Positions 3,894 to 32,495 of a stretch of DNA of 32,495 nt are shown piece by piece. The stretch covers positions 4,661-37,155 of the forward strand of contig JAAXWL010000016.1 of the NCBI GenBank assembly GCA_013334975.1, in the 5' to 3' direction. The DNA comes from Chlorobiaceae bacterium. Lineage in GTDB: Bacteria; Bacteroidota; Chlorobiia; Chlorobiales; Chlorobiaceae. Below the pieces are notes generated by a model that made no database searches, had not been told where the DNA came from, and worked only from the letters and a program-made list of their open reading frames with translations. The first letter of the stretch is position 1, and each line of letters starts with the position of its first letter. The translations under genes and the position numbers were made by a program.

Positions 3894-4439
3894 ATGAAGC
3901 GTCTTGCGATCACCCTCGTGCTTGCCGTCATGGCGCTTCTCCTGCCGGTCTTACGCTGTCCGGCACAAACCGCCAATGACTCTTTCACTGAAGCCCTGTC
4001 AAAGCACCATTCCGGCGATCTCCGGGAAGCGATCCGCCTGTACAGCAAATCCATTGATCACGACTCGCTCCATGTCATGGCCTACCTGATGCGCGGCGCC
4101 GCCTGGCACAAGCTTCGCCAGTTCGAAAACGCTATCGCCGATTATACGAAGGTGATCGACCTCGGAGATCCCTTGTTCCAGGCCGTCGGCTATTTCAATC
4201 GGGGAGTCGTCAGAAATCTTTCCGGGCAATACCAGGAGGCCATACCCGATTTTTCACTGGCCATCAGCCTTGACAAAAAAATGAGCGCAGCATTCTTTCA
4301 TCGCGGCATTGCGCGTGTCAGGATCGGTGACCAAACCGGAACATTCGATGACCTGAACGAGGCTGCCAGACTTGGCGACCCGGATGCCGAATGCTGGCTC
4401 GACACCACAACCCCCGGTTGGAGAGTGATGAACCGATAA
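3894..4439 (+). CDS. Exported tetratricopeptide repeat protein
   Basis: I chose the ATG at 3894 because it opens a clear Sec signal peptide (MKRLAITLVLAVMALLLPVL) with likely cleavage near residues 24-26. An in-frame ATG at 3768 would bury that signal behind 42 unlikely residues. The 181-residue product then holds about four TPR units. Examples are the FTEALSKHHSGDLREAIRLY unit, the unit with AWHKLRQFENAIADYTKVI, the one with GQYQEAIPDFSLAISLD, and a C-terminal one with DLNEAARLGDPDAECWL. Such repeats mediate protein-protein contacts, here probably in the periplasm or at the outer membrane. The partner is unknown. The gene stands alone, divergent from scpA and convergent with glnB. The cysteine near the cleavage site is not in a good lipobox, so I do not call it a lipoprotein. 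Confidence 0.8.
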   Translation: MKRLAITLVLAVMALLLPVLRCPAQTANDSFTEALSKHHSGDLREAIRLYSKSIDHDSLHVMAYLMRGAAWHKLRQFENAIADYTKVIDLGDPLFQAVGYFNRGVVRNLSGQYQEAIPDFSLAISLDKKMSAAFFHRGIARVRIGDQTGTFDDLNEAARLGDPDAECWLDTTTPGWRVMNR

Positions 4440-4529
4440 AGCGCCTTCCCTTGTCATCACTCCGGATGTACACCACCCGCAGCAACAGAAATCGAGGTCG
4501 GTATGGAACTCAATCGAGATTTCAACTGA

Positions 4530-4635
4530 AATCCGATTTGGATACCGATTTGGATACCGATGGAAGAAAGAAACGAACAGATAAATTGTCCAAATTGGTA
4601 TCGGTATCGGTATCGGTATCGGTATCGAAATCGAG
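4530..4635. repeat. GGTATC hexamer repeat with inverted arm (dispersed family, copy 1)
   Basis: This stretch lies between the convergent TPR and glnB genes. The left arm holds two CGATTTGGATACCGAT-like units (about 4534-4561). The right arm (4590-4629) begins CCAAATTGG and runs through five exact tandem GGTATC hexamers at 4597-4626, then GAAATCGAG. The arms are inverted relative to each other and could fold into a long imperfect hairpin. Two related copies occur in the window, at 13849-13921 and at 32458-32495, both with the same CCAAAT(C/T)GGTATCGGTATCG core. No coding function is apparent. Confidence 0.8.
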
Positions 4636-4644
4636 AAGCTCCGA

Positions 4645-4686
4645 TAAAAAACAGAGCCGCAGGGTTATCACTCCTCTGCGGCTCTT
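4645..4686 (-). terminator. Rho-independent terminator of the amtB-glnB operon
   Basis: A 10-bp perfect stem, AGAGCCGCAG (4653-4662) with CTGCGGCTCT (4676-4685), is followed on the minus strand by GTTTTTTAT. It begins about 38 bases after the glnB stop. The U-tract lies only on the minus-strand side, so it terminates the ammonium operon rather than the TPR gene. Confidence 0.88.
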
Positions 4687-4723
4687 CTGTTGCTTGTGCA
4701 AGACTCCTCTTCAGCAGGCAGGC

Positions 4724-5065
4724 TCAGATGGCGCTGCCTCCGCGTTCGTTGGTTCTGATCCTCACACACTCTTCAAGGGGAGTGATGAAAATCTTGCCGT
4801 CACCGATCTCGCCACTGTCATGCCTTGCGGCCTTGGCAATGGTATCGACCGTTATATTGACGAACTGGTCGTTGACTGCAATATCGAGACGGACTTTCGG
4901 AAGCAGGTTCGGCGCGATTTTCTGTCCGCGGTAGAACTCGATATCTTCCTGACGTCCATGCCCGGCAACCCTCGTCACGGTAATCCTTGTAATATCAGCC
5001 TGGATCAGCGCTTCGCGAACGTGGTCGAGCCGATCTGGCTGTATGATGGCGGTTATCAGTTTCAT
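4724..5065 (-). CDS. glnB: P-II family nitrogen regulatory protein
   Basis: A 113-residue PII signalling protein, expected to be trimeric, to bind ATP/ADP and 2-oxoglutarate, and to control targets such as the adjacent ammonium channel. It starts MKLITAIIQPDRLDHVREAL, has the T-loop region GRQEDIEFYRGQKIAPNLLPKV, and the nucleotide-binding B-loop IGDGKIFI followed by RIRTNERG. The T-loop is one residue shorter than in E. coli GlnB/GlnK. The tyrosine uridylylated there (Tyr51) aligns with Ile50, although the other loop tyrosine (YRG) is kept. Control by GlnD-type uridylylation at the usual site is therefore unlikely. The gene begins 9 bases after amtB and shares its promoter and terminator, the classic GlnK arrangement, so the name glnK would fit equally well. 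Confidence 0.93.
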   Translation of the reverse strand: MKLITAIIQPDRLDHVREALIQADITRITVTRVAGHGRQEDIEFYRGQKIAPNLLPKVRLDIAVNDQFVNITVDTIAKAARHDSGEIGDGKIFITPLEECVRIRTNERGGSAI

Positions 5066-5074
5066 GCTTGATTA

Positions 5075-13571: not shown

Positions 13572-13847
13572 GTGAACCAGAAACGGATTCATATCATCGT
13601 ACGCGGTCTGGTACAGGGGGTGGGCTACCGCATGTTTGTGTTGCGCGAAGCATCCTCCCGAGGTCTTTCAGGATGGATCCGAAACCTGCCTGACGATACG
13701 GTTGAAATCGAGGCACAGGGGGAGCCGGAGATGCTGGAAACCCTGCTCTGCAAACTCCGGCAGGGTCCGTCGCGGTCGCGCGTCACCAGGGTAAATGTCC
13801 GGGAAACGGACTTGGATGCCGATGCGGAAGGGTTCCTTGTCCGGTAG
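13572..13847 (+). CDS. acyP: Acylphosphatase
   Basis: A 91-residue acylphosphatase, a small cytoplasmic enzyme that hydrolyses carboxyl-phosphate bonds such as in acetyl- or carbamoyl-phosphate. The phosphate-binding loop is VRGLVQGVGYR with the essential R20, and the catalytic asparagine is N38 in GWIRN. Length and both key residues match the family. The start codon is GTG, seven bases after the ftsH stop, and no strong ribosome binding site is seen, so translation probably depends on ftsH. The gene ends just before a dispersed repeat copy and the oppositely oriented tRNA-Val. Confidence 0.93.
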   Translation: MNQKRIHIIVRGLVQGVGYRMFVLREASSRGLSGWIRNLPDDTVEIEAQGEPEMLETLLCKLRQGPSRSRVTRVNVRETDLDADAEGFLVR

Positions 13848-13848
13848 T

Positions 13849-13921
13849 AGTTCGTGTTCGTGTCGAAATCGAAATTGATAACCCGTTGGAAGATTCGATC
13901 GCGATACCGATACCGATTTGG
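13849..13921. repeat. Dispersed GATACC repeat (copy 2)
   Basis: Between acyP and tRNA-Val, this stretch contains TTCGTG doublets, TCGAAATCGAAATT, and a 20-mer at 13902-13921 (CGATACCGATACCGATTTGG). That 20-mer is the exact reverse complement of positions 32458-32477. It belongs to the same family as the hexamer array at 4530-4635. A short T-run on the minus strand next to it (13924-13928) may help end the tRNA transcript. Confidence 0.8.
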
Positions 13922-13942
13922 ACAAAAAGAGGGGAGATTGTG

Positions 13943-14016
13943 TGGGTCCCGAGGGATTCGAACCCCCGACCTACTGGGTGTAAACCAGTCGCTCTAACCA
14001 GCTGAGCTAGAGACCC
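13943..14016 (-). tRNA. tRNA-Val (anticodon TAC)
   Basis: The minus strand folds into a complete 74-nt cloverleaf. It has a seven-pair acceptor stem (GGGTCTC with GGGACCC, one G-T pair) and a D arm with GCTC/GAGC. The anticodon stem ACTGG/CCAGT encloses TTTACAC, giving anticodon TAC. The TTCGAAT T-loop sits on a five-pair stem, and the discriminator base is A. CCA is not encoded. It reads GTA and, with U34 modification, other valine codons. A good promoter lies just upstream. Confidence 0.97.
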
Positions 14017-14032
14017 GTGAGAAAGGGACATT

Positions 14033-14061
14033 AGTATAACACACTTTTTACAGGATAACAA
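14033..14061 (-). promoter_or_regulatory. Predicted promoter of tRNA-Val
   Basis: On the minus strand TTGTTA (14061-14056) and TATACT (14038-14033) are spaced by 17 bases, and the mature tRNA begins 16 bases downstream of the -10 box. Position and spacing fit a strong stable-RNA promoter. Confidence 0.65.
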
Positions 14062-21491: not shown

Positions 21492-24400
21492 ATGAACACC
21501 GACCTTCAGGTCATGACCGATGAAACGGCTGACGCGACGATTGCCCGCCTGAAGCAGGAGATCAGCGAACTGAAAAAAGAGCTGAACAGGCGCCCCATGT
21601 TTTTCGAGGGTACAACCGCCGGAAACTGGGACTGGGAGGTACAGACAGGAAACGTTACCATCAACAATGCCTGGGCCGAAATGATCGGCTACACTGCCGA
21701 AGAGCTCGCGCCGCTCACCCTGTCCAAATGGAAAAGCTTCTGCCAGCCAGATGACCTCCATGAAGCGACGGCGCGTCTCGAAAGTCATTTCCGGGGTGAA
21801 ACCGCCCACTATGAGGCGGAAATCCGGATGCGGCACAAAAAGGGACACTGGGTCTGGATTCTCGACCGTGGCAAGGTTTACGAGCGTGACCGTGAGGGCA
21901 AACCGATCCGGATGGCCGGTTCGCATCAGGAGATCACCGGGCGCAAGCACGCCGATGAGGCGTTGCAGCAGGAGAGGAACCTCTTTCTGGAAGGCCCGGT
22001 CACGGTGTTCCGGTGGCAGAAAACAGAGGGATTCCCGATCAGGTATGTCTCCCCGAATGTTACCCGCCTGACGGGCTACTCGCCGGAGGAGTTCACTTCG
22101 GGAATCGTAGCATATACCGATCTTGTCCACCCGGATGATCTCGAGCAGATTGTGACGGAAATGGCGAGCTACGCCTCCGAGGCAGGGCGCACCTCTTTCG
22201 AACAGGAGTACCGGATTTTCCGCAAGGACGGCACCATCTTATGGCTCTACGAATTCACGACGATCATACGTGACGATGACGGCCTTATCACCAGCTTTGA
22301 AACCTATGCGCTCGACAACTCGATACGGAAACAGTCTGAAGAAACCATTGCCTTCAACCGGCGGTTTGAACACCTCATTTCAACACTCGCCAGCCAGTTC
22401 ATCAATATCTCTGCGGAGCACATTGATGAGATGATCAACCATGCATTACAGGCAATCGGAGCGTTCCTCGAGGCCGACCGGAGCTGTATTTTCCAGTACT
22501 ACAACAATCAGAAAATCATGGAGAAGACCCATGAGTGGTGTGCCGAGAGTATCACGCCATATAACCATATTCTGAAGCAACTGCCCTCCGACAATTTCGA
22601 GTGGTTGAATGCGAAACTCGCCCGGAACGAGATGATCATCGTGCCGAAGGTCTCCGAACTGCCGGATGAGACCGATTCGGGAAAAGAGTTTCTCGAAAAA
22701 ATGGAGATCAAATCCCTGATTTCCATTCCACTCATATCGGGTAGCACCCTATCAGGTTTCATAGGATTCGACGCCGTAAGACAGGAGCGGCAATGGTCAT
22801 CGAGCATGGTATCGAGCCTCTTGATGGCGGGAGGCATCATCACCAACGCCCTGCAACGCAAGCAGGTCAAGCACCTGATTCAGAGCGAACTTGACTTGGC
22901 GCTGAAACTCTCCGCTTCACAATCATTTGAAGAGACCATCCAGCTCTGCCTCCAGACCGCCATAGAGCTGTCGCGCATGGATTGCGGCGGAGTCTATCTG
23001 GTGAACGAGGCTGAAAACTGCCTCAAGCTTGTCTACACTCAGGGGGTCAGTGACGGGTTTATAACGGATGTTCACTTAGTCTCGCAGAGCACTCCTGAAT
23101 TTCTGCTCATGACCTCCGGAGCGCCACTCTATAACGACCAGGAAGCTCCGGTTCAGGAGGGCATCTATAAGGCCATGCGGGAAGAAGGGCTGAAATCATC
23201 CGCTATTCTGCCCGTTATCAGCAAAAACCAGCTCGTTGCCGTCTTCACTGTCGCCTCACACTCATTCGGTGAAGTGCCGGATTTTGCCCGCAAAGCCCTC
23301 GAAACCGTGGCCTCACATATCGGCGCAGCAATCATACAGGCGCGGCAAGAAGAAGAGGTGCGCTCAGTCAACCGCAACCTCGAAACACTTTTCGGATCGG
23401 TCGATGATATGCTCTTCGTCGTCGGTGAAAATGGCAAAATAAAGCACGCCAATTCGGCAACAATAGCCACCCTTGGCTATCAGCTCGATGAGCTGCGGAC
23501 GATGACGGTACTCGACGTTCATCCACCGGAGCTTCGCGAACAGGCGCAAAAAAGGGTCGCTGAGATGCTTTCCGGCACTGAAACCATCTGCAATATCCCC
23601 CTCTTCAGGAAATCAGGCGACAGGCTCCCTGCGGAAACAAAGATAACGCACGGTATATGGAATGGGCAACCGGTGATCTTCGGCATCTCACGGGATATTT
23701 CCGAGCGTCTGAAAAACCAGTCCAGACTGGTCGAAAGCGAGAGGAAGTTCAGGGAGCTGACCGAGTTCCTGCCACTGCCGCTCGTCGAGACCAACCGGCA
23801 GGGAATCGTTACCTATATCAACAACTCGGGTCTGGAGTTTTTCGATCTCTCTCACGAGGAGCTGCAGCAAGGGATTTCGGCATTCAGTTTCTGCTCTCCG
23901 GAAGAGTTCGAGATGGCGCTGGCGAGCCAGACAAAGATGCTCGTTCCGGGTTATATCCCGAAAGGCAACGAGTACACCGTCATGATGAAAGATGGGCGCC
24001 GCCTCCCATTGATGCTCTACAGTACGCCCATCAGACAGGGAAATGGTCAGGTTTCTGGCATTCGAACCACGGTGGTCGATCTGACCGAACTGAAACGGGC
24101 CGAGGAAGCCCTGCGTGAAAACGCCCTGCAGAAACGGGTCAGCGAAGAGTTCAGGTCGATCATCGACAACATTCCCGGCGTAGTCTACCACACTTCGGAC
24201 GATGGCGTCATCAAGTTTCTTTCTCAGCCTGCGGATGCGGCCTCCTGCGATCTCTTGTCGCTGCTTTCCGGTACGAATGACATCGCGATGTCATTGGTCT
24301 GCCCGGATGACCGCCAGCTCGTGGTCGATACCTACAGGGAACTTCGCGAAGCGCCAGCCTCAAAAGTCGTCCTCTTCAAGATCGTCATGCCCGACGGAAG

Positions 24401-25685
24401 CATCCGCTGGATCGAAGACCGCCGAACATCACTTTTTTCAGAACACGGCAAATTTTCAGGTATTGACGGAATCCTGTTCGACATTACCGACAGGGTCAAG
24501 GCTCAGAAAGAAAAGCAGCAGCTTGAGCAAAACCTGAAAAAAACCCAGCGCATCGAAACCATCGGCACGCTTGCTGGCGGTATCGCTCATGATTTCAACA
24601 ACATTCTCTCCCCGATTCTTGGCTATGCAGAAATGGGCGTGGTATCACTCTCGAAAGACACCAAACAGCACGGCTATTTCAACGAGATCATGATGGCTGC
24701 CGAGAGAGCGCAGCATCTGGTGGCGCAGATACTGGCCTTCAGCAGGGCCGAAGAGCGCGAGCCAGTGGTGGTCAACGTGAAGGAGATCGTCAGCGAGGCG
24801 TTGAAGCTTCTGCGGCCATCGATTCCGGTCACCATCACCATAAAGAAAACCATCGACGAGAAGTGCGGCAACGTGCTCGCGGATCCGTCACAGATTCATC
24901 AGGTCATCGTCAACCTTTGCACCAACGCCTTTCAGGCCATGGCCGAATCGGGAGGCGAGATGACCATCGATCTCCGGGAGATCAAGCCAGACGAGGCGCT
25001 GCTCAAGCGAATGCCGTCGTTGCTGGCGGAAGGGTACATTCAACTCAGCATCGCCGATACAGGGCACGGCATGGATGAGATCACGATGGAAAGAATTTTC
25101 GAACCATTCTTCACAACCAAACCAGTGAACAAAGGCACAGGCCTCGGTTTGTCGGTAGTTCACGGCATTGTCACCAGCTATAAAGGCGAGATTACTGTGG
25201 AAAGCGCCCCCGGAAAGGGCTGCACCTTCAGGATATACCTTCCTGTAATCGAAAGCGGCGTTGCCTCACCGAAGCATGTCAGTGAGCTTTCGAGAGGCGA
25301 GCAGAGCACCCGCATTCTCTTTGTCGACGACGAAGAGGCGACCGTGGCTCTCATGAACGTGATGCTGGAGTATCTCGGCTTCAGCGTGCTGACGGTGAAT
25401 TCTCCCGTTAAGGCGCTTGACGAGTTCCGCAAGGAGCCCGCGGCCTTCGATATGGTCATCACCGATCTCACCATGCCGGAGATGACCGGCATCGAGCTCG
25501 CAGGAGAACTGCATGAGATCAGCCCGAGTCTGCCGGTAGCGCTCATGACCGGATATGGCAGGGATATAGAGAACACCGTGCCGCTCAGTCAGTACGGCAT
25601 CTGTAAATTTCTGAAAAAGCCGGTCAGCCTCTCAAATCTTTCACAGGTAATCACGGAGGTGATGGCATCGGCCGCTCACACCTGA
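21492..25685 (+). CDS. Soluble hybrid histidine kinase with five PAS and two GAF domains (paralogue 1)
   Basis: A 1,397-residue sensor kinase without membrane helices, so a cytoplasmic sensor. Domain order by residue: short coiled coil 15-34; PAS1 about 35-155; PAS2 165-283; GAF1 290-455; GAF2 470-618; PAS3 627-742; PAS4 748-872; PAS5 885-1005; HisKA with phospho-acceptor H1033 in GGIAHDFNN; HATPase with [18 protein letters not shown] and [12 protein letters not shown]-terminal receiver about 1272-1390 with D1325 in [12 protein letters not shown] and the KKP lysine. There is no output or HPt domain, so a separate phosphotransfer partner is needed. No LOV-type cysteine motif or bilin site is evident, so the signal is unknown. 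It is collinear with the kinase at 26861-31051. The start has only a weak ribosome binding site. Confidence 0.92.
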
Positions 25686-26674: not shown

Positions 26675-26860
26675 CGTTTCCCTCTCTGGGCCTCATATTC
26701 CCTCGTTTACAACAGAAACAAGGAACGAAAGAACACAACTTGCCGGTAGTAAAAGAAATACTGTAAGGAGTACGGCATTTGCCAAAAGCAGGATCCGCAG
26801 AGAAGACTCTCCCTGCGACCCATGATTGCCCCATTTTTCAACGCGGTTAACTCATCGATA

Positions 26861-29800
26861 ATGAACGACGATTCCAGAATCTTTGCAAAAGAAAAGGATA
26901 ACTCGACGCTCACCCGACTGAAGCATGAGAATACAGAACTTAAAAAAGAGCTGCACCGGCTTTCCATGCTGGTCGAGAGCAGCAACGCCGGATACTGGGA
27001 CTGGGATATTCAAACCGGAAACATTGCCATCAGTGGCGCCTGGGCCGGTATGACCGGCTACACCCCCGAGGAGATCGCTCCGGTGACCCTGGCAACCTGG
27101 AAAAGCTTCTGTCATGCTGACGACCTCCGGGAAGCAACCGTTCGACTCGAAAGTCATCTGCGAGATGAAACCGATTACTATGAAGCAGAAGTCCGGATGA
27201 GGCACAAAAAAGGCCACTGGGTCTGGATTCTCGACCGCGGAAAGGTTTTCGAACGTGACCATGAGGGAAAAGCGCTCCGGATGGTCGGTTCACATCAGGA
27301 GATCACCGAGCGCAAACATGCCGAAGAGACGATTCGGCAGGAAAGAACCCTCTTTCTTGAGGGACCGGTAACGGTTTTTCGGTGGCTGGTTGCCGAAGGC
27401 TACCCGACCGAATATGTCTCCCCGAATGTCACCAGGCTGACCGGTTATCAGCCCATTGACTTCACCTCCGGAATCATAGCGTTTACCGATGTGATCCACC
27501 CCGACGATCTTGAACGGATCCTTGACGAGATGGTTCACTACTCATCCGATAGCCAGCGAAGCTCCTTCGAACAGGAGTACCGTATTATCCGCAAAGATGG
27601 CAAGATTGCCTGGATTTATGAATTCACGACCATCATACGGGACGAAAACGGGCTCATCACCTGCTATGAAACCTACCTGCTCGACAACACGATACGAAAA
27701 CAGTCCGAAGCGTCACTGGCTTACAACCGGCAGTTCGAACACCTGCTTTCGGCACTGGCCAACCAGTTCATCAATGCCTCCTCAGAGCGCATCGATGCAA
27801 TAATCGATAAAGCCTTGCAGGCCATAGGAGAGCTCGTCAAGGCCGACCGGAGTTATATTTTCCAGTACCGTGACAACCTGCGCTTCATGACCAACACCCA
27901 CGAGTGGTGCACCGAGGGTATCGAACCACAAATTGATTTCCTGCAAAAGCTTTCAACCGATGAGTTCCCGTGGCTGACCGGAAAAATGATCAGCAACGAA
28001 CTCCTTATCGTGCCGAGTGTCTGTGGAATGCCTGATGAAGCCGCTTCAGAAAAGGTGATTCTTGAACAGCAGGATATAAAATCCCTGATTCTCATTCCTC
28101 TCTTTTCGGGCAGCGTTCCATTCGGCTACATCGGCTTCGACGCCGTAAGGCAGGAGCGGCAATGGACTTCCGATTCTGCTTCGATTCTCGCACTGGCCGG
28201 AGGTTTTATCACCAACGCCTTGCAGCGCATACAGACCGAACAGCTTACCCGCAAAGAACTTGAGCTTGCGCTGAAGCTCAGTGCCTCGCAATCATTTGCC
28301 GAGACCCTGCACCACTGCCTCCAGACCGCAATGGAGATATCGGAGATGGATTGTGGCGGAATCTATCTGCTCAACGAAAACGATGCCAGCCTGGATCTTG
28401 CCCACAGTCAGGGAGTTTCGGAATCATTTGTTCAGCAGGTCATGACCTTCAAACAGGACTATCCGGATTACCGGCTGATGACCTCCGATACCGTCCTGTA
28501 CAGTGACCAGATGCCCATGATCAGCGAAAGTCTGAGTAAAGTCTTGCTGGAGGAGTCGATGAAAGCTTTTGCGATGGTGCCGGTTATCAGCAAAAACCGC
28601 GTCATCGCCCTCCTCAACGTAGCCTCCCATACCATCGATCAGGTTCCGGAGTTTTCGAGAAAAGCGCTCGAAACTGTTGCATCGCATATCGGCGCGGCCA
28701 TCATGCAGGCCCGTCACGAAGAGCGGGTCAGCTCCGTAAACCTCAATCTTGAGACCCTTTTCAACTCCATCGATGACATGCTGTTCGTTATCGGCGGCAA
28801 CCTCGCCATTGTGCACGCCAACGCAGCCAGCATTGATGCGCTGGGCTATTCCCTCGATGAATTACGGCAGATGAACCTGCGCGACCTGCATCCTCCCGAG
28901 TTCCAGGAAAAGGCTCTGGAAACGGCAAAACAGAGAAATGCCAGCACCAGATCGGTTTGCCAGATGCCCATGCTCATGAAATCGGGTAAAACGATCCCCG
29001 TGGAAACGAAGATAACTCCCGGAATCTGGGACGAAAAACCGGTGCACTTCGAGATCACCCGCAATATTTCAGAGCGTCTGAACAGCCAGTCCGCCCTCAT
29101 CGAAAGTGAGAGAAAATTCCGGGAACTCACCGAATACCTGCCGCTCCCGCTTTTCGAAACCGACCTTCGGGGAATCGTAAACTATATCAACCTCTCTGGA
29201 ATGGAGTTTTTCGATCTCACTCCAGAGGATATCGAGCGGGGAGTTTCAACATTCAGCTTCTGCCTGCCGGAAAATATTGAACTTGCCGTAGCGAACCAGC
29301 AGAAAATCCTCGATCCTGGCTATATCCCCAAGGGCAACGAGTACACCATTGTCATGAAAGATGGGCGACGTTTGCCCTTACTGCTCTACAGCACGCCCAT
29401 CAGAAAAGAGGGCAAATTTGCCGGGGTACGCACCACCGTGGTTGATCTTTCCGAACTGAAACGCGCTGAAACCGCACTCCGGGAAAACGCACTGCAAAAA
29501 CGGGTCAGCGAAGAGTTCCGATCCATTATCGATAACATCCCCGGCTTGGTCTATCACCTCTCGTCTGACAACACCATCAGGTTTCTGTCGGAAACCAGTC
29601 AGGCGTGGCTGACAGAAGCACTGTTGCCCGATGGTTCAGGTTCGCTCGACAAGGTACTATCGTTGATCCATCCCGAAGATCGTCAGGCTGTTGTCACTAA
29701 CGGTAAAAAAATTCGCCGTAAACAGACATCGATGGTGAGCGTGTTCAGACTTTCGATTCCCGACAAAGGGATGCGATGGATTGAAAACCGGAGCACCTCC

Positions 29801-31051
29801 ACCTTTTCGGATAACGGCCATTACCTGGGCGTTGACGGCATCCTCTTCGACATTACCGACCGGGTGACGGCACAGGAGGAAAAACGGCAACTTGAAGCGA
29901 ATCTGAACAAAACCCAGCGCCTTGAAACCATCGGGACACTGGCCGGTGGTATTGCGCACGATTTCAACAATATTCTTTCTCCGATCCTCGGTTACGCAGA
30001 AATGGGCGTCACCCAGCTTCCGGAAAGCAATCCGCTTCGGGAGTACTTCACCCAGATCATGCTGGCCGCCGAACGAGCACAGCATCTCGTTTCGCAGATT
30101 CTGACGTTCAGCCGTGCTGAGGGCTACAAACCCGTGGCCGTCAGCACCCAATCGGTCATTGATGAGGCACTGAAACTACTGCGCCCCGCCATACCGGCAA
30201 CCATCTCCATCAACATCATCAAGAGCGACTGCGGTAACGTGCTCGCCGACCCCTCACAGCTTCATCAGGTCATCGTCAACCTCTGCACCAATGCATTCCA
30301 GGCCATGGCAACTTCCGGAGGCGAGATGACCATCGACCTTCGGGAGGTCGAGCCGGACAGCGAGTTTCGCAAAATGCACCCAACCCTGAAAGAAGAGCGC
30401 TACGTCCAGATCAGCGTCACCGATACCGGCCGCGGCATGGATGAGGCCACCATGGAAAGAATATTCGAACCTTTTTTTACAACCAAACCCGTCAACAAAG
30501 GCACCGGACTCGGACTTTCGGTGGTTCACGGCATCGTCTCAAGCTTCCACGGCACCATAGTCGTCGAGAGCACCCCCGGCAAAGGGAGCGCCTTCCGGGT
30601 TTATCTCCCCGTCATCAGTGACGACTTGCAGCATCAGCACAATGAAAACACAAAAACCGAGAACCAGCAAGGCAAACGGGTACTTTTTGTCGATGATGAA
30701 CTGGCCGCCATAGAGGTCATGCGGGTCATGATGAGCCATCTCGGCTTCAAAATCCATGCATTGAACTCGCCGGTCGAGGCGCTTGCCGAATTGCGCAAAG
30801 ATCCTGAGGCCTTCGACCTGGTCATCACTGACCTCACCATGCCCGAAATGACCGGCATTGAACTTGCACGCACCCTGCACGAACTCAACCCGCAACTGCC
30901 AATGATACTGATGACCGGATATGGCAAGGAAATTGAAAGTATCGCTTCGCTCAACCGCTTCGGTATCCGGAAACTGGTCAAGAAACCGGTGCGACTCTCC
31001 CTGCTCGCACTGGCCGTCCGGGAGGTACTGGGCGACGGTACGCATCCATAA
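26861..31051 (+). CDS. Soluble hybrid histidine kinase with five PAS and two GAF domains (paralogue 2)
   Basis: Paralogue of the kinase at 21492-25685, with the same order: coiled coil, PAS-PAS-GAF-GAF-PAS-PAS-PAS, HisKA, HATPase, receiver. From the ATG at 26861 it has 1,396 residues. The phospho-acceptor is then H1033, exactly as in paralogue 1, and the receiver aspartate is D1324 against D1325. That agreement is why I prefer this start over the in-frame ATG at 26822. Catalytic motifs are intact ([43 protein letters not shown]). The two proteins differ most in GAF2, in the middle of PAS5, and just before the receiver. They may sense related but distinct signals. No ribosome binding site is obvious. 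A downstream partner regulator is not present. Confidence 0.92.
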   Translation: MNDDSRIFAKEKDNSTLTRLKHENTELKKELHRLSMLVESSNAGYWDWDIQTGNIAISGAWAGMTGYTPEEIAPVTLATWKSFCHADDLREATVRLESHLRDETDYYEAEVRMRHKKGHWVWILDRGKVFERDHEGKALRMVGSHQEITERKHAEETIRQERTLFLEGPVTVFRWLVAEGYPTEYVSPNVTRLTGYQPIDFTSGIIAFTDVIHPDDLERILDEMVHYSSDSQRSSFEQEYRIIRKDGKIAWIYEFTTIIRDENGLITCYETYLLDNTIRKQSEASLAYNRQFEHLLSALANQFINASSERIDAIIDKALQAIGELVKADRSYIFQYRDNLRFMTNTHEWCTEGIEPQIDFLQKLSTDEFPWLTGKMISNELLIVPSVCGMPDEAASEKVILEQQDIKSLILIPLFSGSVPFGYIGFDAVRQERQWTSDSASILALAGGFITNALQRIQTEQLTRKELELALKLSASQSFAETLHHCLQTAMEISEMDCGGIYLLNENDASLDLAHSQGVSESFVQQVMTFKQDYPDYRLMTSDTVLYSDQMPMISESLSKVLLEESMKAFAMVPVISKNRVIALLNVASHTIDQVPEFSRKALETVASHIGAAIMQARHEERVSSVNLNLETLFNSIDDMLFVIGGNLAIVHANAASIDALGYSLDELRQMNLRDLHPPEFQEKALETAKQRNASTRSVCQMPMLMKSGKTIPVETKITPGIWDEKPVHFEITRNISERLNSQSALIESERKFRELTEYLPLPLFETDLRGIVNYINLSGMEFFDLTPEDIERGVSTFSFCLPENIELAVANQQKILDPGYIPKGNEYTIVMKDGRRLPLLLYSTPIRKEGKFAGVRTTVVDLSELKRAETALRENALQKRVSEEFRSIIDNIPGLVYHLSSDNTIRFLSETSQAWLTEALLPDGSGSLDKVLSLIHPEDRQAVVTNGKKIRRKQTSMVSVFRLSIPDKGMRWIENRSTSTFSDNGHYLGVDGILFDITDRVTAQEEKRQLEANLNKTQRLETIGTLAGGIAHDFNNILSPILGYAEMGVTQLPESNPLREYFTQIMLAAERAQHLVSQILTFSRAEGYKPVAVSTQSVIDEALKLLRPAIPATISINIIKSDCGNVLADPSQLHQVIVNLCTNAFQAMATSGGEMTIDLREVEPDSEFRKMHPTLKEERYVQISVTDTGRGMDEATMERIFEPFFTTKPVNKGTGLGLSVVHGIVSSFHGTIVVESTPGKGSAFRVYLPVISDDLQHQHNENTKTENQQGKRVLFVDDELAAIEVMRVMMSHLGFKIHALNSPVEALAELRKDPEAFDLVITDLTMPEMTGIELARTLHELNPQLPMILMTGYGKEIESIASLNRFGIRKLVKKPVRLSLLALAVREVLGDGTHP

Positions 31052-31216
31052 CATCAGTGCGATACCGTTCCTGAATCGGCACAACCTCCGTTGCACGAAG
31101 AAAAGAAATGACAAAACGACTAAAAAAGGAGGGACATTCAATCACTCGATACAGTCAGGCGACCTTTACCATAAGGGTACTGCCGCTTTTTTCCCAACAA
31201 TCATCAGGAGAACATC

Positions 31217-31489
31217 ATGGATGACGGATACCTCACCCAGATCATGCTTTTCGCAGGCAACTTCGCACCGCGGAATTGGGCATTCTGTGCTGGCCAGATT
31301 TTGCCGATAAACCAGAACACGGCTCTTTTCTCCCTTGTCGGCACCATGTACGGCGGTGACGGCAGAAGCACCTTTGCGCTTCCCGACCTGCGCGAAAAAG
31401 ACGAGCAGGGCAATCCGCATATCGGTTATGAACTGGGCAAGCCCTCCTGGATCATCTGCACACAGGGCATGTACCCGACACGCGAATGA
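31217..31489 (+). CDS. Short phage tail-collar domain protein
   Basis: A 90-residue protein with the tail-collar (microcystin-dependent protein-like) domain. It shows the MDDGYLTQIMLFAGNFAPRN start, WAFCAGQILPINQNTALFSL, then MYGGDGRSTFALPDLR. The usual proteins are about 170-190 residues. Here the middle is missing, and the sequence passes from ALPDLR through a short linker to the standard ending WIICTQGMYPTRE, so it is an internally shortened form that keeps both ends. An AGGAGA ribosome binding site precedes the ATG, so it appears expressed. Such domains occur in phage tail fibres and in tail-like particles. No other tail genes are here, and its role is unknown. Confidence 0.85.
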   Translation: MDDGYLTQIMLFAGNFAPRNWAFCAGQILPINQNTALFSLVGTMYGGDGRSTFALPDLREKDEQGNPHIGYELGKPSWIICTQGMYPTRE

Positions 31490-31509
31490 ACAGGCTTTTC
31501 TGAATCGAA

Positions 31510-31541
31510 GGGGCGGCATTTCTGATGGCGCCCCGCTCTTT
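31510..31541 (+). terminator. Weak terminator-like hairpin after the tail-collar gene
   Basis: GGGGCGGCAT (31510-31519) pairs with ATGGCGCCCC (31525-31534) except for one internal mismatch, with a five-base loop. GCTCTTT follows. The short U-tract makes it a modest terminator for the collar gene, in the gap before the convergent lysozyme gene. Confidence 0.45.
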
Positions 31542-31556
31542 CACCAGTACCGGCCC

Positions 31557-32009
31557 TTACGCCACAGGCGTTTCGAACAGCTTTCGCTCGCTTGCCCGGC
31601 GGCGAACCAGACCTTCGAGTTTTTCGCCACCGCCATAGATCCATTTTCCGAATTGGTTGGCTGCATCGGTATAATTCTTCTGATTGAGCAGCTTGAGCAA
31701 AGTACTGGTACGAAGGTTCTGTGCTCCTGCGTTGTAGGCGAAATCAACAAGAGCGTCAAACTGGTGCTGGTTGAGTGGCACAGTCACATAACGATTTACC
31801 GCTGCTTCATACTGGCCGAGTGTGGCGCGCATGATCTCCTCTGCCTTCGCCTCGGTGATTGGCGGGTCGGTGAGTTTTACAGGCGTCCCATTTTCATACC
31901 GGGTCGAACCGTAGCCAATGGTAAGCACCCCTGCGGGGCAGCGATAAGGCTTTGCGCTGAATCCTTCGAATTCCCTGATAATCTTCAGACAGTTGCCGGA
32001 TACCTGCAT
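31557..32009 (-). CDS. Phage-type lysozyme (glycoside hydrolase family 24)
   Basis: A 150-residue endolysin-type muramidase that cleaves the MurNAc-GlcNAc bond of peptidoglycan. The catalytic glutamate is E15 in REFEGF. The aligned second and third positions are C24 in YRCPAGV and T30 in LTIGYGS, giving an E-C-T arrangement instead of the E-D-T of T4 lysozyme. The C form is common in prophage-derived members and is expected to be active. FDALVDFAYNAGA and the C-terminal VRRRASERKLF are typical. There is no signal peptide or signal-anchor, and no holin gene nearby, so export is unexplained. AGGAG lies six bases before the ATG and a good promoter upstream. It converges on the tail-collar gene; both look phage-derived. 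Confidence 0.93.
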   Translation of the reverse strand: MQVSGNCLKIIREFEGFSAKPYRCPAGVLTIGYGSTRYENGTPVKLTDPPITEAKAEEIMRATLGQYEAAVNRYVTVPLNQHQFDALVDFAYNAGAQNLRTSTLLKLLNQKNYTDAANQFGKWIYGGGEKLEGLVRRRASERKLFETPVA

Positions 32010-32093
32010 GGTTGCTCCTGTTTATGTGGGAAATAGAATAATCGGTGGCATCGCCCGAAAAACTTTGGCGCATCGGGTCGTCCTATATGAGCT

Positions 32094-32122
32094 ATAATAT
32101 ACGTAATACATTCTATATTCAA
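32094..32122 (-). promoter_or_regulatory. Predicted promoter of the lysozyme gene
   Basis: On the minus strand TTGAAT (32122-32117) and TATTAT (32099-32094) are separated by 17 bases. Transcription would start near 32087, giving a leader of about 78 nt before the ATG at 32009. Confidence 0.55.
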
Positions 32123-32177
32123 AAAAACCGAATGGAACCAGATTCCCTGCTCTCATCCCTCGCACCCTTCTGAAAAC

Positions 32178-32223
32178 AAAAAAAGCCCTGAACACTCAGC
32201 GGGGAGAGCTGAGCACCCAGGAC
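32178..32223 (-). terminator. Strong Rho-independent terminator of the 52-residue gene
   Basis: A 16-bp stem with several G-T pairs (arms 32208-32223 and 32185-32200, seven-base loop) is followed on the minus strand by seven T's (32184-32178). It begins 35 bases after the stop of the small gene and isolates it from the lysozyme gene's promoter. Confidence 0.85.
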
Positions 32224-32258
32224 TTTAACCAATCTTCCGCTGAACTACTTCCTGAAGC

Positions 32259-32417
32259 TCAGGAGTGGCCACCTGCGACGATGCGGATCATCTTGATGTT
32301 GAGGATAATGAACCTGAACAGTTGCCACGGCACAAACTTGCGCCAGAAAAGGGTTGTCTTGTCCGGCACCGGAGGATACGCCTCGTCGTAATAAGCCTTG
32401 AATTTATAATTTCCCAT
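32259..32417 (-). CDS. Small basic amphipathic protein, 52 residues, unknown function
   Basis: The minus-strand frame starts MGNYKFKAYYDEAYPPVPDK and ends RIVAGGHS. It has a Tyr/Pro-rich polar N-terminal half. A Trp-containing, basic-hydrophobic C-terminal stretch follows (residues about 24-47, with FWRKFVPWQLFRFIILNIK), which looks like a membrane-surface or short membrane helix. A GGGGA ribosome binding site lies four bases before the ATG, and a strong terminator follows the stop, both arguing that it is a real, separately expressed gene. It has the feel of a conserved lineage-specific small protein of green sulfur bacteria, perhaps membrane- or chlorosome-associated, but I cannot assign a function. 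A dispersed repeat copy lies just upstream. Confidence 0.65.
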   Translation of the reverse strand: MGNYKFKAYYDEAYPPVPDKTTLFWRKFVPWQLFRFIILNIKMIRIVAGGHS

Positions 32418-32457
32418 GATTCCCCAGTGTTATTGTTTCAACAGTTCCCGTCCCCAT

Positions 32458-32495
32458 CCAAATCGGTATCGGTATCGTATTTATCCGATTTCGAT
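32458..32495. repeat. Dispersed GGTATC repeat (copy 3), running to the window edge
   Basis: Starts CCAAATCGGTATCGGTATCG (32458-32477), exactly the reverse complement of 13902-13921, and continues through ATCCGATTTCGAT to the end of the window. It lies 41 bases upstream of the 52-residue gene, so it may overlap that gene's promoter region. The copy may continue beyond the edge. Confidence 0.8.

Follow-up and report, generated by a model that had tools for sequence, protein, structure and literature searches.

What does a frame of 52 codons at the very edge of a green sulfur bacterial contig encode, and with which cellular system does its product belong? The stretch of DNA analysed here (the window; 32,495 nucleotides of a Chlorobiaceae genome) ends where its contig, C145, ends, and the frame lies close to this end, at 32259..32417 on the minus strand, exactly where an original prediction made from the letters of the window had placed a 52-residue ORF. 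Its product, MGNYKFKAYYDEAYPPVPDKTTLFWRKFVPWQLFRFIILNIKMIRIVAGGHS, is referred to here as the SQR-associated small protein (SQR, sulfide:quinone oxidoreductase, a sulfide-oxidising enzyme) on the grounds of conservation, selection and linkage. The original prediction had staked the gene on a frame conserved in green sulfur bacteria and on unequal rates of synonymous and non-synonymous change, and both are seen. Homologues at E < 1e-15 are present in 69 of the 86 genomes of the family and in 71 of the 98 genomes of the class, so the ORF is not a product of chance. The ratio pN/pS is 0.086 for 17 close sequences and 0.160 for 26 sequences, 4 of the 29 relatives' loci being omitted from the set for indels or shifted ends, and variable columns at codon positions 1, 2 and 3 number 19, 12 and 47 of 52, respectively. 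The small gene is coding and under strong purifying selection.

The same prediction had described a gene with its own ribosome binding site and a strong terminator. The terminator is borne out: a stem at 32226-32182 on the minus strand (feature 32182..32226) comprises 19 pairs, wobbles included, with a 16-bp core and three outer A-U pairs around a loop of 7, and is followed by a T tail. The 93-nt stretch that holds it folds at -37.4 kcal/mol (z = -3.58), and 1 of 200 shuffles was equally good. Among relatives, a strict ungapped scan places a terminator-like stem (8 bp or more) 3' of the gene in only 8 of 78 cases, against a shuffled mean of 0.8, and a search of 31000-32495 against Rfam returned no match. 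The possible ribosome binding site, GGGGA (32421..32425, minus strand), does stand 3 nt before the ATG, but it is not common to relatives, which carry tgaatc, tgacca, agaacc or similar sequences at this position. To call the site the gene's "own" is misleading: the ORF is real, but it is a second gene behind an SQR gene, and in each of 75 loci the interval between them is free of a terminator-like stem.

In the window's genome, this SQR gene lies across a break in the assembly. The window's terminal 127 nt (32369..32495, no strand), in which codons 1-16 of the ORF fall, recur without change as the opening 127 nt of another contig of this genome, C120, and C120 carries, 5' of the ORF and likewise on the minus strand, a gene for an SQR of 485 aa (L032:331-1785, stop codon at 328-330). 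About 280 nt of repeat-like sequence separate the two genes here; most relatives have 35-60 nt at this point. The spacer (32418-32495 and L032:1-330) holds runs of GATACC/TTTCGA and, twice, a TTGCGGGACACGATAACTGCGTTG element, and it is there that the assembly breaks; short runs like those of GATACC/TTTCGA show up in the translated ORFs around 4391-5071 and 13783-14061 as well.

The 485-aa protein is homologous to solved SQR structures (3hyv, 3sz0 and others; E 1e-33 with the single sequence and 3e-41 with a profile). Three cysteines that are invariant in the SQR alignment A4, C141, C179 and C413, align with the SICT, SCFG and ICI cysteines of 3hyv, which we take to be the redox cysteines of SQR, the third falling in a weak second stretch of the match. 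The protein is 92% identical to an SQR located in genome G019 at 112 kb of 2,154,946 bp, presumably the position expected for CT0117 of Chlorobaculum tepidum, and the neighbour is thus probably a type IV SQR (SqrD, the CT0117 type). A passage of PMC4584964 describes CT0117 as a type IV SQR, and SqrD is said, in an excerpt of PMC3368242, to account for the greater part of SQR activity in C. tepidum.

The association of the small gene with SQR extends far beyond this genome. SQR is present in all 29 class loci (L003-L031). Moreover, a scan of GTDB genomes gave 142 places encoding relatives of the small protein, and among the best 80 of these 142, SQR lies directly upstream on the same strand in 77, the remaining three being truncated by contig ends that leave only 4-6 nt upstream; the GTDB loci with the partner include records named Lentimicrobium, Bacteroidales, Saprospiraceae, Prolixibacteraceae and Chloroherpetonaceae. 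A profile built with diverged forms of the small protein as well was run on 394 Bacteroidota genomes and, on its own, singled out 18 genomes outside the class, in which all 18 matches lie 20-111 nt behind an SQR gene; one of these loci (in G386) belongs to a paralogous SQR clade, and in another (in G356) the SQR and the small gene are both broken by frameshifts. Gene content follows suit. With SQR scored at at least 75% identity, 71 of the 98 class genomes have both the 52-aa gene and SQR, 27 have neither and none has one alone, and across the 394 Bacteroidota genomes there are 96 with both, 297 with neither and a single one, G356, with the partner and only broken pieces of SQR. No genome among these 394 holds an intact SQR of the partnered clade without the partner. 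Such co-occurrence is partly automatic since the genes are linked, and Fisher values overstate it since the genomes are related and the two genes adjacent. Linkage is thus invariable and co-occurrence with the enzyme is of the kind expected of a micro-subunit, and the small gene is inseparable from one SQR clade, both in where it lies and in which genomes hold it. Extra copies of the 52-aa partner, with broken frames and with no SQR detectable nearby, were also encountered at L142 (G070) and L143 (G039); like the pair in G356, they show SQR and partner decaying jointly.

On its other side, the SQR pair adjoins a gene for a phage-type lysozyme (31557-32009, minus strand; Pfam Phage_lysozyme, E 1e-45), and a 90-aa protein with a tail-collar domain is encoded at 31217-31489 on the plus strand. 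The small gene, which precedes the lysozyme gene by 249 nt on the same strand, could be read as a phage holin in front of its lysozyme, the more so as PHROGs labels the latter an endolysin. Yet lysozyme matches occur within flanks of ~1.5 kb at only 7 of the 29 class loci, where SQR is constant, and two of the seven are pieces of 36-41 residues; in addition, the small protein has no match in Pfam, and its best PHROG match is at E = 0.08. A holin is therefore vanishingly improbable at this locus, and as a function of the whole family it is refuted by linkage. The lysozyme itself, as seen across L003-L031, is intact in some relatives, fragmentary in two and, in most, not to be seen close to the small gene. 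Further along the window, two adjacent and similar ORFs of ~1400 aa (21492-25685 and 26822-31051) look, from their translations by eye, like multi-sensor hybrid histidine kinases with receiver domains.

The partnership of the small protein and SQR is also found in other phyla. The three closest plasmid SQRs, those of Thiodictyon (59.5% identity), Sulfurovum (58.4%) and Marivivens (53.5%), each have a 52-53-aa 'hypothetical protein' encoded directly behind them, and the core of these plasmid partners is the same as that of the Chlorobiaceae form, namely P-T followed by Q..RF..[LI]N.K. Across phyla, P18, Q32, R35, N40 and K42 are invariant. Such invariant Q, R, N and K residues, along with the position behind SQR, might be expected of a regulatory or sulfide-sensing peptide that controls SQR at the level of protein or message and takes no part in catalysis, yet neither a cysteine nor any other residue obviously suited to binding sulfide or metal is conserved, and a regulator should have been lost in some lineages, yet in the 394 genomes the clade offers no intact SQR that lacks its partner. 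Regulation as the role of the small protein is therefore very unlikely. A further SqrD-like gene with a partner was noticed on plasmid pTs485 of Thiodictyon syntrophicum (L184:2501-4231); the excerpted text of the genome paper of this organism names only THSYN_04215 and THSYN_09305, as SqrD and SqrF (PMC5944118).

Within the class, a second form of the pair exists. Paralogous SQRs, at 41-43% identity, carry in 12 of 12 cases a 38-aa partner of the MRPTSFDKFLMRCRIYQLWRFVVLNIKILKAVHHEKTS type with the core Q..RF..LN.K, encoded directly behind the paralogous SQR in all 12 Chlorobiaceae genomes having that SQR (L137-L141, L146, L147 and L179-L183). Four genomes (G024, G025, G028 and G029) hold both SQRs, each SQR with its own form of the partner, and the small gene has thus been duplicated along with SQR, the 38-aa form accompanying the paralogue. 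The weak matches of the profile could be sorted accordingly: chance was rejected as their explanation at L137-L141, L146 and L147, where the loci show the 38-aa paralogue, those at L142 and L143 are decayed 52-aa copies, and those at L136 (a transporter) and L148 are chance matches.

The partner motif is not a general feature of SQR-like genes. It was absent from the short frames on the gene's strand, in the stretch fetched, at 10 of 10 other SQR-like loci, comprising eight plasmid genes at no more than 31% identity (8 of 30 such matches) and two distant homologues from G019. A tree of 38 SQRs sets all 28 partnered ones apart by a branch supported at 100/99, the two outgroup rows from G019 forming very long branches. 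For annotators, P-T followed by Q..RF..LN.K within a protein of ~50 residues encoded behind SQR may serve as a simple marker of this SQR clade.

As for the small protein itself, no family was found in Pfam for the window's protein or five relatives, nor in NCBIfam, where two relatives match at E 0.15-0.17, far below the cut-off, and PHROGs gave two chance-level matches only (E 0.08 and 0.21). Among PDB sequences no chain matches (best E 0.32 with the single sequence and 0.79 with the profile), and a Foldseek search of the PDB with the 52-aa model returned no match. AlphaFold2 predicts, for the small protein alone, helices at residues 20-27 and 29-49 behind an N-terminus of low confidence, with block pLDDT values of 82-92 over residues 21-50. 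The net charge is +5 in the window's protein and +5 to +8 in seven members. The hydrophobic moment of the window's protein is not above that of shuffles (P = 0.066), its best 18-mer lies outside the long helix, and the moments are within shuffles for 6 of 7 members tested; 'basic and hydrophobic' therefore describes the sequence, and the case for 'amphipathic' is weak. The protein and its relatives form an as yet unnamed family whose members are very small, basic and helical, and the original prediction of a real, conserved and probably membrane-surface small protein has stood up. In a joint fold of the L056 SQR, a read-through linker and the partner, the C-terminal domain of SQR stays below pLDDT 50 over 406-526, and the partner reaches 44-58 versus 82-92 alone; all folds were made as single chains with alignments of at most 36 rows.

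The original prediction had also raised a link to the photosynthetic complexes of this lineage, and a small, hydrophobic protein that most green sulfur bacteria possess (69 of 86 family genomes) may indeed bring to mind a subunit of the photosystem or chlorosome. The distribution speaks otherwise, as the protein is missing from 17 of the 86 family genomes and is found in Bacteroidota MAGs of other classes (Lentimicrobium, Bacteroidales and Saprospiraceae), in Sulfurovum and in Marivivens, always together with SQR. Nor did the PDB searches lend support, the matches to photosystem-related chains being at chance level (PsaO, E = 0.89; a 16-kDa membrane protein, E = 0.32) with the single sequence and none appearing with the profile. 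On distribution, linkage and PDB searches, a photosynthetic subunit is rejected as highly improbable. PscE and PscF, described in part of PMC9529944 as extra reaction-centre subunits with 59 residues modelled and four membrane helices, are likewise small accessory subunits of the same lineage; they differ from the small protein in accession and in anatomy, as far as that description goes, and no PDB sequence matches the small protein.

What, then, may the small protein do for SQR? A functional partnership of the two is very likely. We infer binding, and it is quite likely that the small protein is a physical subunit or an assembly partner of SQR; a reading as micro-subunit or obligate partner of one SQR clade, most plausibly type IV SqrD, is likely. 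A role at the membrane or the quinone site is put forward more tentatively, at a little under even confidence. In the mechanism that could be envisaged, the most certain step would be that SQR and the small protein are made from one message, a step that is less secure in the window's own genome, where the ~280 nt of repeats part the two genes. Second in certainty, the small protein would bind SQR or serve its assembly. The least certain steps concern geometry: the disordered, Tyr/Pro-rich N-terminal half may dock on SQR, helices 20-27 and 29-49 may lie in the membrane surface beside the C-terminal domain of SQR, and it could be hypothesized that the small protein thereby helps to hold SQR on the membrane and shapes the quinone entrance. 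The partner is tentatively placed at the membrane face of SQR because most SQRs bind the membrane by C-terminal helices, which a passage of PMC9666304 describes along with a quinone channel.

A bolder proposal, which we consider evenly poised between right and wrong, is that type IV SQR is a two-subunit enzyme in which an obligate subunit of ~50 aa completes the membrane-facing, quinone-reducing surface in trans, and that this subunit arose once at the base of the clade and then followed the enzyme in its duplication and its spread through Bacteroidota, Campylobacterota and proteobacteria. If so, the enzyme made in foreign hosts without the small protein would be incomplete. Active SQRs are reported, in the portion of PMC9666304 concerned, to be hard to express in other hosts, which would suit an assembly or targeting factor that binds new SQR, for FAD loading or membrane delivery, and is absent from the finished enzyme. 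The same linkage and co-occurrence data and the basic hydrophobic helix are compatible with such a factor, yet the lockstep duplication, with each SQR keeping its own form, suits a stoichiometric partner at least equally well, and a role confined to assembly is judged rather unlikely.

A lasting partner of SQR, the preferred reading, has parallels elsewhere. The CydX-type micro-subunits of respiratory complexes are very short and membrane-associated, and their genes adjoin the catalytic gene, all of which holds, or in the case of membrane association probably holds, for the small protein as well; they differ in having no sequence relation to it in Pfam or NCBIfam, and the enzyme here is a monotopic flavoprotein rather than an integral oxidase. 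Through SQR, electrons from sulfide enter the quinone pool, and a conserved second component, annotated as 'hypothetical' or missed altogether, would alter the expression, purification, assay and classification of type IV SQR. The small protein probably represents a family of micro-partners that is new, while the enzyme served is a known one, and this SQR clade probably has a small partner that has been overlooked. SQRs are described as single-subunit flavoproteins in the excerpted text of PMC10892978, whereas the SQR at the position expected for CT0117 (type IV, SqrD) has the partner gene directly behind it, and no report of a small subunit or partner of type IV SQR was found in the open-licence literature searched. 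A similar position is occupied by Alvin_1196 and Alvin_1197, genes behind the SqrF gene of Allochromatium vinosum for which a passage of PMC10892978 suggests a part in the membrane attachment of SqrF. As described there, however, these two go with type VI SqrF and are absent from Thiocapsa bogorovii, and this description sets them apart from the present family, which goes with a type IV-like clade. Small membrane proteins of the DUF2892 kind are also annotated beside SQR-like genes, at 6 of the 8 plasmid loci whose SQRs are at no more than 31% identity, but they differ from the family described here in sequence, in conserved positions and in SQR clade. A DUF2892-like partner was accordingly rejected, the window's protein and five relatives having no Pfam match and the conserved positions being different. 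The six loci in question (L187, L221, L222, L224, L225 and L226), with DUF2892 proteins beside SQR-like genes of another clade, form an independent case.
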